A stretch of 64,000 nt of DNA, from contig NZ_CP022412.2 of assembly GCF_002222615.2 (NCBI RefSeq), positions 3,162,001 to 3,226,000 on the forward strand, read 5' to 3'. The DNA comes from Bacteroides caccae (lineage in GTDB: Bacteria > Bacteroidota > Bacteroidia > Bacteroidales > Bacteroidaceae). A program made the translations under genes and the position numbers. Positions within the stretch are counted from its first letter, which is position 1; each line of letters begins with the position of its first letter. Below are positions 9,354 to 36,420 of this stretch, one piece after another. Under the pieces are notes generated by a model. That model searched no databases, was not told where the DNA came from, and saw nothing but the letters and a program-made list of their open reading frames with translations.

Positions 9354-9379
9354 TGGTATATATTATAAAATAACTAGTG

Positions 9380-10333
9380 ATGCAAATGATGAGTAAAAAT
9401 GGATTTAGCCGGTGTGGAGAGATCTACATCGGTCGTTTGCGAAAGGAAGGGCGTTATTCTACGGCGCATGTCTACAAAAATGCCCTCCTTTCTTTCAGCC
9501 TGTTCTGCGGCACGTTCAATGTGTCGTTCAGGCAAGTAACCCGGGAACGTTTACGACGTTACGGACAGTATCTTTATGAATGTGGGTTGAAGCCCAACAC
9601 CGTTTCCACGTATATGCGTATGCTTCGCAGTATCTACAACCGGGGAGTGGAAGCGGGTAGTGCTCCTTACATCCCCCGCCTGTTTCACGATGTCTATACG
9701 GGTGTGGATGTTCGTCAGAAGAAAGCCCTTCCTGTCACCGAGTTGCGGAAGCTGCTTTATGAAGATCCCCAATCGGAACGTTTACGCCATACACAGGCTA
9801 TTGCCGCTCTGATGTTCCAGTTTTGCGGAATGTCGTTTGCCGACTTGGCACATCTGGAAAAGTCAGCTTTGGACCGGAACGTGTTGCGGTACAACCGTGT
9901 CAAGACGAAAACTCCGATCAGTGTGGAAGTGCTGGATACCGCGAAGGAGATGATTCACCGGCTTCGCAACAGTCAGCCTTCCCGCCCTGATTGTCCGGAC
10001 TATCTGTTTGATATCCTATCCGGTGATAAGAAACGTAAGGATGAAGGAGCTTACCGTGAATACCAGAGTGCTCTTCGTCGATTTAATAATTGTTTGAAGG
10101 ATCTGGCTCGGGCTCTCCGTTTGAATTCTCCTGTCACTTCCTACACGCTCCGTCATTCTTGGGCAACGACAGCCAAGTATCGCGGAGTGCCGATTGAAAT
10201 GATTAGTGAATCATTGGGACACAAATCTATAAAAACCACACAAATCTACCTGAAAGGCTTCGAGCTTAAAGAACGTACAGAGGTAAATAAAGGGAATTTA
10301 TCTTACATAAAGAATTGTTATGTAGGTAAATAA
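9380..10333 (+). CDS. Tyrosine recombinase, probable inverter of the capsule promoter
   Basis: A 317-residue phage-integrase-family protein with an N-terminal SAM-like DNA-binding domain (about 1-105) and a C-terminal catalytic domain. Catalytic motifs seen: box II 'YTLRHSWAT' (Arg present, the usual first His is Tyr, as is common in Bacteroidetes), 'LGHKSIKTTQIYL' with the His and the Tyr nucleophile, and a Lys in 'VKTKTP'. The first catalytic Arg, normally just before 'GMSF', is Cys here (codon 9824-9826). Several starts are possible (GTG 9377, ATG 9380, 9386, 9389). It lies immediately upstream of the invertible promoter and upxY, the standard place for recombinases flipping Bacteroides capsule promoters, so that role is inferred. 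A prophage integrase is less likely given its order and lack of phage neighbours to the right. Confidence 0.85.
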   Translation: MQMMSKNGFSRCGEIYIGRLRKEGRYSTAHVYKNALLSFSLFCGTFNVSFRQVTRERLRRYGQYLYECGLKPNTVSTYMRMLRSIYNRGVEAGSAPYIPRLFHDVYTGVDVRQKKALPVTELRKLLYEDPQSERLRHTQAIAALMFQFCGMSFADLAHLEKSALDRNVLRYNRVKTKTPISVEVLDTAKEMIHRLRNSQPSRPDCPDYLFDILSGDKKRKDEGAYREYQSALRRFNNCLKDLARALRLNSPVTSYTLRHSWATTAKYRGVPIEMISESLGHKSIKTTQIYLKGFELKERTEVNKGNLSYIKNCYVGK

Positions 10334-10374
10334 AAAGATGTAATGAGTTAATAATCAGAATTAAAGTGTATCTA

Positions 10375-10392
10375 TTACTTCTTAGGTAACAG
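10375..10392 (+). repeat. Left inverted repeat of invertible promoter segment
   Basis: TTACTTCTTAGGTAACAG is the exact reverse complement of 10644-10661, and similarity extends about 8 bases outward with two mismatches. It contains the inner dyad xTTAC-N7-GTAAC, typical of a recombinase core site. It lies 41 bases after the recombinase stop. Confidence 0.85.
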
Positions 10393-10406
10393 AATTAAAT
10401 TTGACG

Positions 10407-10439
10407 CAAAGATAGACATATTTTAAGATAGTAAACAAA
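10407..10439 (-). promoter_or_regulatory. Capsule promoter, pointing left (OFF)
   Basis: On the minus strand TTTG (10436-10439) is followed after 21 bases by TATCTTTG (10407-10414), a full match to the Bacteroidetes -33/-7 consensus. Transcription would run left toward the 3' end of the recombinase gene, with nothing to express. It is the only good consensus pair I found inside the invertible segment on either strand. Confidence 0.75.
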
Positions 10440-10475
10440 TATTTTCCCATTTTTTTTCGTTTTATCTGAAACATA

Positions 10476-10536
10476 GGGCAAAAAAGTATTTGAACATGAA
10501 ATCTCTTTTTTCATGCTCAATGATTTTTTATTGCCC
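10476..10536. other. Long imperfect hairpin inside the invertible segment
   Basis: GGGCAA (10476-10481) pairs with TTGCCC (10531-10536), and CATGAAA pairs with TTTCATG near the tip, with loose A/T pairing between. It sits behind the promoter in both orientations and could insulate the promoter from upstream read-through. There is no clear T run after it, so an ordinary terminator is unproven. Confidence 0.45.
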
Positions 10537-10643
10537 GAAATCAAGAAATCTTCTCGTTGAATATCAGGCCCCCCTCTTTTACACCCTGTATATCAGTGTA
10601 ATTTCCCTTTTTCATTGTTGTGTGTGTCTTGTGTATATACTGC

Positions 10644-10661
10644 CTGTTACCTAAGAAGTAA
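10644..10661 (-). repeat. Right inverted repeat of invertible promoter segment
   Basis: CTGTTACCTAAGAAGTAA is the exact reverse complement of the left repeat. It includes most of the dyad GTTAC-N7-GTAAC and ends 24 bases before the upxY start codon. Confidence 0.85.
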
Positions 10662-10685
10662 CAGATATACATGGGGTAAAAAAAT

Positions 10686-11258
10686 ATGATTTTAACGAAA
10701 CAAAAATCAGCAAATGCTGGGCCTAGTAATGGGACAGGGGAAGGCGTAGCATACTCAAAACGTTGGTATGTCGCTTTGGTTCGCATGCATCACGAGAAGA
10801 AAGTAGCCGAGCGTTTAAATAAAATGGGGATTGAGAATTTCGTTCCGGTTCAGCAGGAACTTCATCAATGGAGTGACCGACGCAAGATGGTCGAGTCTGT
10901 ATTGCTTCCAATGATGGTATTCGTACACGTTGATGCAAAAGAACGTAAAGAAGTTCTTTCCTTTTCTACAGTAAGTCGGTATATGGTAATGCGAGGTGAG
11001 AGCAGTCCGACTATCATTCCTGATGAGCAGATGGCTCGTTTCCGATTTATGCTTGATTATTCAAAATATGTCATTTCCATGAACAGTGCTCCCTTGGCAC
11101 GTGGTGAAAAAGTTCGCGTCATTAAAGGTCCTTTAACTGGACTTGTGGGTGAACTTGTTACAGTAGACGGCAAAAGCAAGATAGCTGTTAGGCTTAATAT
11201 GTTAGGATGTGCTTGTGCTGATATGCCGGTAGGGTATGTAGAACCGGTTAGATTTTGA
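10686..11258 (+). CDS. UpxY-family transcription antiterminator of the capsule locus
   Basis: A 190-residue NusG-like protein. The NGN domain begins at 'KRWYVALVRMHHEKKVAERL' (about residues 25-44) and includes 'FVPVQQELHQWSDRRK'. A KOW-like segment follows near residues 135-165 ('GEKVRVIKGPLTGLVGEL'). UpxY proteins are locus-specific NusG paralogues that let RNA polymerase read through the long 5' leader and operon of their own capsule locus. As first gene after the invertible promoter it fits exactly. The usual second gene, upxZ (inhibitor of other loci's UpxY), is absent: the next gene is a membrane dehydratase 47 bases downstream. Confidence 0.92.
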   Translation: MILTKQKSANAGPSNGTGEGVAYSKRWYVALVRMHHEKKVAERLNKMGIENFVPVQQELHQWSDRRKMVESVLLPMMVFVHVDAKERKEVLSFSTVSRYMVMRGESSPTIIPDEQMARFRFMLDYSKYVISMNSAPLARGEKVRVIKGPLTGLVGELVTVDGKSKIAVRLNMLGCACADMPVGYVEPVRF

Positions 11259-19527: not shown

Positions 19528-19953
<426 letters not shown>

Positions 19954-35154: not shown

Positions 35155-35976
35155 ATGCAGAAAGTTGCAGTAACATTACCAGTATACAAAAATGATAAGG
35201 TTCCTTATATTCATCTTTCGTTTGATAGTATACTGAATCAAACATATAAGAATATCCATCTCTATGTTGGAGTGGATGGCCCTGTTGGTGAGGATCTTGA
35301 GAAGTGCCTCAAGGAATATGAGCAGAATGATAAGGTAACGGTATGTTGGTTCCCTGAAAATAGAGGATTGGCAATCGTATTGAATGATCTGCTGGATGTT
35401 TGCTTCAAGGCTGATTATAATATAATCGCCCGTATGGATGCGGATGATATATCAATGCTAGAAAGAATAGAGAAGCAGGTGGCTTATCTTGAATCACATC
35501 AGGATATTGATGTGGTGGGTGGAGCCATTGAGGAGATAGATGAAAATAGCGAAAGCAGAGAAAAGACGATTACATATCCAGAGACTCATGATGGGTGTTA
35601 TAAGTTTTTTGCTCGAAGAAATCCTCATGCTCATCCTGCAGTTACTTTTAGAAAGAGATTTTTTGAAAAGGCTGAATGTAAATATCGTCCTGAATACCGA
35701 CAAAACCAGGATACGATGTTGTGGGTGGATGGCATGAAGGCAGGTACGCGACATGCTAACCTAAAGGATGTTGTATTACAATTCCGCTTCACCGATTCGT
35801 TATTCAAGAAAAGACGTAATGGTTGGGCTTTTGCTAAAAAACAGTTTAACGATCGTTTGATGATCAATAAAACTTTGGGATATGGAATGGGTGCCAATGT
35901 ATTTGGTTTCTTGATGTTCTGTATGCTTGTAAGTCCACCTTGGGTAAAGAAAATTGCTTATAAGGTATTCAGATAA
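35155..35976 (+). CDS. Glycosyltransferase family 2, AmsE-like
   Basis: A 273-residue GT-A protein with 'VTLPVYKNDKVPYIHLSFDS', 'YVGVDGPVGEDLEK', 'ENRGLAIVLNDLLDVC' and the metal motif 'ARMDADDISM' (about residues 93-102), then 'NPHAHPAVTFRK' and 'RQNQDTMLWVDG'. This combination is typical of AmsE/GalNAc-type transferases. A short C-terminal hydrophobic segment may touch the membrane. It is followed by dead genes up to 36733. Confidence 0.88.
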   Translation: MQKVAVTLPVYKNDKVPYIHLSFDSILNQTYKNIHLYVGVDGPVGEDLEKCLKEYEQNDKVTVCWFPENRGLAIVLNDLLDVCFKADYNIIARMDADDISMLERIEKQVAYLESHQDIDVVGGAIEEIDENSESREKTITYPETHDGCYKFFARRNPHAHPAVTFRKRFFEKAECKYRPEYRQNQDTMLWVDGMKAGTRHANLKDVVLQFRFTDSLFKKRRNGWAFAKKQFNDRLMINKTLGYGMGANVFGFLMFCMLVSPPWVKKIAYKVFR

Positions 35977-35980
35977 TTAT

Positions 35981-36420
35981 ATGAATATCCCGTTGTCATA
36001 TAATCTTCTATTTCAACTTGTTCAAGCTTGGGATAAAGAGATTAATACAGAGCCTTTGTCTTCTTATTATCCAATTGCTGAGGATAGAAGTTTCGGGGAT
36101 ATAGATATATTTAGTTTCGGGGATCATGATAAGGTAAATACTTTCATTAGAAAGAAGGGGATTGAGATAGAATATGATGATAAACATGATGTTTTTAAAT
36201 ATGATGGAATTACAATCGAGCATCATAAATCTTTTTTTAGGATTAATTTTCAAGTCAGCTCGCATCCTTGAGGTATACCTCCAATCTGTGGCAAGCAAAG
36301 ACAAAGCGATTGTTTGCATCAAAATGGATGTTTGACTGCGGATTAATGCCTGATAATTTTTGGAGAGATGTCATTTGGCATTCTGTTATAGATCATCTGA
36401 AAGCTCCTCGTTTTATATAA
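35981..36420 (+). pseudogene. Broken gene, possibly a nucleotidyltransferase-like capsule protein
   Basis: From ATG 35981 a frame encodes about 95 residues ('MNIPLSYNLLFQLVQAWDKE', then 'DRSFGDIDIFSFGDHDKVNT'), with a D-x-D-x pattern as in PF14907-type nucleotidyltransferase-fold proteins, and 'IEHHKSFF' where that family has 'ELH'. Similarity to a protein stops near 36250. A different frame then reads 'FASKWMFDCGLMPDNFWRDV' to a TAA at 36418-36420. I read this as one gene that lost its centre by a frame-changing deletion. The parent family is a guess; the disruption is clearer. Confidence 0.6.

Follow-up and report, generated by a model that had tools for sequence, protein, structure and literature searches.

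A probable invertible capsule promoter in Bacteroides caccae, read in the OFF orientation, and the recombinase cassette to which it belongs

Positions 10375-10661 of the window, the 64,000-nucleotide stretch of Bacteroides caccae DNA analysed here, very probably form a site-specific DNA inversion switch that controls a capsule locus and that was sequenced while OFF. An invertible capsule promoter captured OFF was what the sequence-only reading had proposed, and that proposal is now supported by related loci found in both orientations, by near-identical pairs of loci whose segments are inverted relative to each other, by the promoter spacing at a locked-ON locus and by a repeat core that is already in print. 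The locus thereby joins a familiar class of switches that turn surface structures on and off. Further features are a conserved mid-segment hairpin, for which we prefer the as yet unproven reading of a two-way insulator, and the antisense direction of the OFF promoter relative to the adjoining recombinase gene.

The segment and its neighbours

The arms at 10375-10392 and 10644-10661 pair over 18 of 18 bases, as had been claimed, and enclose an interior of 251 bp (10393-10643), one base fewer than the 252 bp first given; with two mismatches allowed the repeat grows to 27 nt (10366-10392 and 10644-10670, 93% complementary). A search of the whole window for 14-base inverted seeds 60-600 bp apart returned five, overlapping and all belonging to this arm pair, and no second repeat of that seed length and spacing anywhere in the 64 kb; 20 mononucleotide shuffles of the window gave four such seeds altogether, and a chance repeat was ruled out. 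Each arm carries a palindromic core of the form (A/G)TTAC-N7-GTAAC, namely ATTAC-TTCTTAG-GTAAC at 10374-10390 on the left and GTTAC-CTAAGAA-GTAAC at 10646-10662 on the right, so that repeats with a GTTAC...GTAAC core lie about 290 bp apart, a single outer base being altered in the left one. The left perfect repeat ends at the outer core base because 10374 is A instead of G, and among the matches listed the repeat halts at the same base in 10 other loci of the 80 described below. Copies of the core in viral contigs were set aside as chance: all 39 matches were single, and none was double in the stretches examined.

The promoter consensus TTTG-N18-22-TAnnTTTG, also given for Bacteroides in the accessible part of PMC8748976, matches the segment once, on the minus strand and aimed at the recombinase, with its -33 box TTTG at 10436-10439 separated by 21 bases from its -7 box TATCTTTG at 10407-10414. 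No second full match to this consensus occurs on either strand of the segment; the plus strand has a single -7-like box, TAAATTTG, to which no -33 box belongs, and weak sigma-70-like sites between the recombinase and upxY occur at the chance rate. Once inverted, the two boxes would occupy 10597-10600 and 10622-10629 on the plus strand, the -7 box ending 56 bases ahead of the upxY ATG at 10686. Both the sole promoter facing away from upxY and this reflected geometry had been put forward earlier, and the consensus scan and our recount bear them out; here and below, ON and OFF are labels assigned by consensus promoter score, not by mapped transcription starts.

Upstream, at 9377-10333 on the plus strand, an open reading frame encodes a tyrosine recombinase of 318 aa, the presumed invertase (Pfam Phage_integrase, 2e-14; Phage_int_SAM_5, 5.8e-17), with 41 bp between its end and the perfect left arm. 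Its catalytic positions were placed by motif position and by comparison with a XerC-like protein of solved structure, to which it aligns weakly, above all around Arg I (E 3.5e-07): Arg II (259), the second His (282), the nucleophile Tyr291 and Lys176 are present and Arg174 is conserved, while Ser153 stands at the Arg I position and Tyr256 at that of the first His. The same pattern recurs in 95 of 95 alignments that span the catalytic site (94 loci), all of which keep Arg II, the second His, Tyr and Lys, have Ser, Pro or Ala at the Arg I position and Tyr at the first His position, and keep an Arg 21 residues downstream of the Arg I position. Displacement of Arg I is known from the CTnDOT integrase, and Tyr in place of the first His from another subgroup, according to the accessible part of PMC8138268. 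Activity is likely despite the two unusual positions, because relatives with the same residues sit at loci found in both orientations; from its position and conservation we infer that this is the enzyme acting on both cores.

Downstream, upxY (10686-11258, plus strand) is the first gene of the capsule locus and encodes a NusG-like antiterminator (NCBIfam NF033644 at 174.6 bits, the cut-off being 100; NusG domain), some close relatives of which carry the name UpxY. It is followed on the same strand by capsule biosynthesis genes at 11306-38776, interrupted by gaps and two gene fragments, whose Pfam content comprises Polysacc_synt_2, Poly_export, Wzz/AAA, UDP-sugar dehydrogenase and epimerases, then glycosyltransferases, flippase-like Polysacc_synt, Bac_transf and aminotransferase. 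Both upxY and these genes lie within reach of the flipped promoter. The suggestion that a 28-kb operon is switched by one inversion holds as to size, given the same-strand run from 10686 to 38776; that the run, in which some gaps reach about 0.7 kb, forms a single transcript is putative. Two of the gaps contain a C-terminal epimerase fragment (19547-19909) and a nucleotidyltransferase-like fragment (35954-36268).

Sister segments, inverted orthologues and locked loci

The window is part of one 4.57-Mb contig, in which the core, with at most three mismatches, forms ten facing pairs, each adjoining a recombinase. Five pairs of 286-289 bp make up a first group, with recombinases 66-100% identical to the window's, and precede three upxY genes (the two besides the window's known from upxY alone), one DUF3575/DUF3868 locus and one YjbH-like locus; five pairs of about 300 bp, with recombinases 40-43% identical, make up a second group, which we presume to stand ahead of S-layer genes. 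At one second-group locus the downstream protein could not be placed clearly in any Pfam or NCBIfam family. In all ten segments the promoter scores higher on the side of the recombinase, with 10 of 10 consensus letters in three and 9 of 10 in seven, so that the nine further segments (G000:C1 near 1250942, 2580999, 3464070, 3654464, 2225312, 3833329, 4020402, 4162329 and 4166584) are all scored OFF. This uniform facing fits mostly-OFF populations and equally fits inactive switches. The segments near 1250942 and 2580999 have the same 7-base core centre as that of the window, and exchange between these distant loci is therefore conceivable. Elsewhere in the genome (4552840-4554815) a weakly UpxY-like gene, 28% identical, adjoins a recombinase gene (36% identity), and the two are separated by an imperfect inverted repeat of another sequence.

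Across 158 genomes of the genus, with at most 14 candidates per genome scored, the recombinase had at least 84 matches of at least 56% identity, of which one, incomplete, was left out and 83 were examined; one that ran into a contig end, one whose segment reads N and one that lacks a repeat pair were then set aside, leaving 80 loci at which the cassette of recombinase, two arms and one promoter was scored. Among the matches listed, these 80 loci in 20 genomes comprise 8 ON and 72 OFF by promoter score, with no ties and with 10 settled by a single letter. That the 8 ON loci fall in 8 genomes is expected in 22% of random draws, and a rule of at most one ON locus per genome is not claimed. The 7-base centre is equal on left and right in 70 of the 70 loci whose cores fit the pattern, an equality partly built in by the finding of arms as inverted repeats; it has five versions, one of them in 61 loci.

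The cassette family thus occurs in both orientations, and inverted orthologue pairs accompany the scores. Six ON loci have a close OFF match, and in all six the interiors agree better inverted (80-97%) than direct (46-50%). Three of these pairs are clear orthologues from different species that differ by inversion of the segment alone, their flanks agreeing in direct order at 91-98%: L230/L231 (interior 97% inverted vs 48% direct; flanks 92% and 98%), L227/L226 (94% vs 46%; flanks 95% and 93%) and L092/L236 (91% vs 48%; upstream flank 91%, downstream too short). The other three pairs are L217/L216 (flanks 81%), L215/L165 (flanks only 64% and 73%) and L228/L221, both members of which lie in one genome. 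The two remaining ON loci have no close OFF match (74% and 43%).

A natural control is offered by a fourth upxY locus of the same genome (L049:4907-4997; G000:C1 about 2963906-2963996), where upxY is followed by polysaccharide export genes, no recombinase match and no partner arm were found beside it, and a promoter, CTTG-N21-TATCTTTG, faces upxY, followed by a decayed arm and a leader resembling the window's. From the end of its -7 box to the ATG there are 55 bases, compared with 55-56 at the three invertible upxY loci turned round and 56 in the window. Over 95 bases it matches the window in 68 of 98 columns with the segment turned round and in 61 of 100 as it stands; because the inverted match exceeds the direct one only slightly, it is the position of the box that carries the argument. 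Four further genomes have a similar locked locus, one (G026) with the same arm and three (G040, G059, G001) with more decayed arms, and none of the five loci has a recombinase in the flanking sequence examined. Inverted seeds of 10 bases occur upstream at two loci (L289, L298), the arm not being involved, and two others (L299, L300) have no inverted seed pairing with the arm. The locked loci were collected with the locked-ON sequence as query, a search that locked-OFF loci would escape, and so are not an unbiased sample. The decayed-arm pattern is present in 11 of 158 genomes at up to two mismatches, about as often as a backwards control, and the exact matches followed were those in the genome under study and in G026; a further candidate, L302, was discarded, no locked promoter being seen there. 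The locked loci agree with the ON direction as assigned, and show the state of the arms where there is no recombinase. The sequenced population may make a default capsule while its switchable ones are OFF.

The central hairpin

Between the promoter and the far arm lies a dyad, GARCATGAA...TTCATGTTC, that forms a hairpin at 10476-10536 (inner stem 10490-10520), conserved with compensatory changes. In the window it folds at -23.5 kcal/mol (z -5.2) on the plus strand and at -22.1 kcal/mol (z -4.3) on the minus strand, and it was called terminator-like on the minus strand, where 1.7 such sites were expected by chance. When the 80 loci are reduced to 60 that are non-redundant, 92.5% of the alignment cells pair, as against 24-49% in slid versions, and seven of ten pairs have changed on both sides, with 28 compensatory cells against 11.1 (sd 3.0) in shuffles that ignore relatedness and test a structure derived from the same sequences. 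RNAalifold run on the hairpin alignment gave a weak structure of five pairs at -0.92 kcal/mol. Rfam gave no credible match, only a miRNA family at 22.6 bits where the cut-off is 100. Three second-group loci that were folded, without a shuffle control, also hold a central hairpin, of other sequence.

We favour the reading of this element as a putative insulator that works in both directions, though it is unproven. Somewhat below even chances, and thus a serious competitor, stands the alternative that the dyad acts as DNA, bound by a regulator or by the recombinase, rather than as a terminator. Such a site would account for the constancy of the layout: CATGAA-N4-14-TTCATG occurs in 44 of 80 loci, 33 of the 44 with an 11-base gap, and the distance from the dyad centre to the outer end of the arm is 123-140 bp, 133 bp being the commonest value (14 of 44), a constancy that shared descent could also explain. 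It would suit, too, an A+T-rich stem whose T-run begins some bases past it. The compensatory changes in seven of ten pairs weigh against it, as do runs of at least five T within 16 bases past the stem, found on one strand in 40 of 60 loci and on the opposite strand in 16 of 60. A strand bias that we considered as proof of an RNA structure was abandoned: raw cells numbered 58 G-T against 20 A-C, whereas parsimony on the tree counted 17 changes into G-T and 18 into A-C. Equal frequencies favour a DNA site, but the absence of bias is equally expected of a two-way terminator, and the counts fit either element.

Relation to known switches, mechanism and meaning

The closest published counterparts are the capsule loci of B. 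xylanisolvens and B. thetaiotaomicron. In the accessible part of PMC12118408, the core flanks a 290-bp segment at B. xylanisolvens CPS1, where inversion was called from sequencing data, a nearly identical segment is present at B. thetaiotaomicron CPS1, 3, 5 and 6, and B. xylanisolvens capsule operons with such segments shift their expression under phage. The published 20-bp repeat opens with GTTACTTCTTAGGTAAC, which is the core of the window's right arm, and continues past it with GGA where the window has AG; the fragment is 289-290 bp, compared with 287 bp over the perfect repeats here, and an invertase or integrase likewise lies upstream there, with upxY downstream at several loci. Two loci of B. 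xylanisolvens XB1A (L172, L185) have the promoter type of the window. Peculiar to the window are the outer A of its left core, other capsule genes and a genome in which UpxZ was not detected. The repeat described for the BT1927 S-layer family of B. thetaiotaomicron, CCGTTACCTABVRAGTAAC, fits by eye four of five right arms of the second group, the fifth with one difference (PMC12118408, PMC12548429, as far as accessible). Populations biased towards OFF have been described: in rich medium only about one cell in 1,000 expresses BT1927 (PMC12548429, accessible part). Segments of this second group differ from that of the window in length, at about 300 bp, and in their unrelated interior.

In B. fragilis, the invertase Mpi is of the serine type. 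There, as in the window, promoter inversion takes place ahead of capsule loci with UpxY, but one global invertase, Mpi, serves seven loci, whereas here every locus is flanked by a tyrosine recombinase of its own; UpxY antitermination is described as a separate regulatory layer (PMC12632263, accessible part). The B. fragilis large-capsule promoter was OFF in three genome sequences while PCR shows both forms (PMC3090145, accessible part). In a defined community, the accessible text of PMC11892184 places tyrosine invertases and upxY genes close to segments of this kind, oriented, as here, so that the promoter can transcribe upxY but not the invertase. No NCBIfam model bearing the name of that study's invertase cluster matched the window's recombinase, and a shared identity is putative. 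We found in the open literature no earlier report of an antisense invertible promoter over a recombinase in Bacteroides and no earlier statement of a hairpin or terminator within an inverton, the B. thetaiotaomicron inverton and terminator map, in its accessible part, being without it.

We posit that the adjoining recombinase (9377-10333) would act on the two GTTAC-N7-GTAAC cores, and that strand exchange would flip 10375-10661, turning the leftward promoter, antisense to the recombinase gene, into a rightward one that would start transcription about 50 bases before upxY. UpxY would then antiterminate the capsule locus of about 28 kb, as is known for B. fragilis UpxY and presumed here, and in either orientation the mid-segment hairpin, on our unproven reading of it, would stop recombinase transcripts from entering the capsule genes. 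Inversion may be necessary yet insufficient for capsule expression, because UpxY antitermination constitutes a second layer.

That the segment is instead a frozen relic, in which the repeats and the recombinase persist with the promoter stuck facing away, we consider highly improbable. In its favour, the left core has its outer half-site disrupted by A10374, all ten segments of the genome face one way, locked loci do occur in the genus and two of the usual catalytic residues are missing from the recombinase family; against this, the same outer base is broken at 10 other loci, the recombinase frame is open, its residues are those of relatives at loci found in both orientations, and the arms have decayed at loci without a recombinase, which those of the window have not. 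It is quite unlikely, if less so, that the promoter flips while capsule expression is set elsewhere, by a fixed promoter, by read-through from the recombinase or by UpxY alone. Antitermination by UpxY is indeed known as a layer of its own (PMC12632263, accessible part), and promoters of other types could lie between the recombinase and upxY; the segment, however, is without a second full consensus promoter, the central hairpin might hinder read-through, and the B. xylanisolvens capsule operons that have such segments respond to phage (PMC12118408, accessible part).

The inversion switch, our favoured reading, invites a broader and more speculative proposal. A profile search for UpxZ (PF06603) gave no match in the genome of the window, nor in any control genome of that run, a search that a divergent form could escape; in a set of 41 genomes that counts the one under study, it gave matches in 4. 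The cassette carrier G012 is among the four, and in the cassette carriers G001, G040 and G059 UpxZ was not found. The genome has four clear UpxY-like genes and no UpxZ match. If UpxZ is truly absent, cross-locus repression of the B. fragilis kind would be missing here. The cassette might be a self-latching module, with an antisense OFF promoter that damps the recombinase and a hairpin that insulates both ways; we hold this to be doubtful, but were it true, exclusive capsule choice would come down to the latch and one naturally locked-ON default capsule locus, without UpxZ.

For B. caccae, a genome with ten related segments gains a clear capsule switch in the OFF state, and its locked-ON locus with a decayed arm serves as a natural control that helps to fix the ON orientation. 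The hairpin and the antisense OFF promoter lead to testable ideas on how the OFF state may be maintained and how switching rates may be set.
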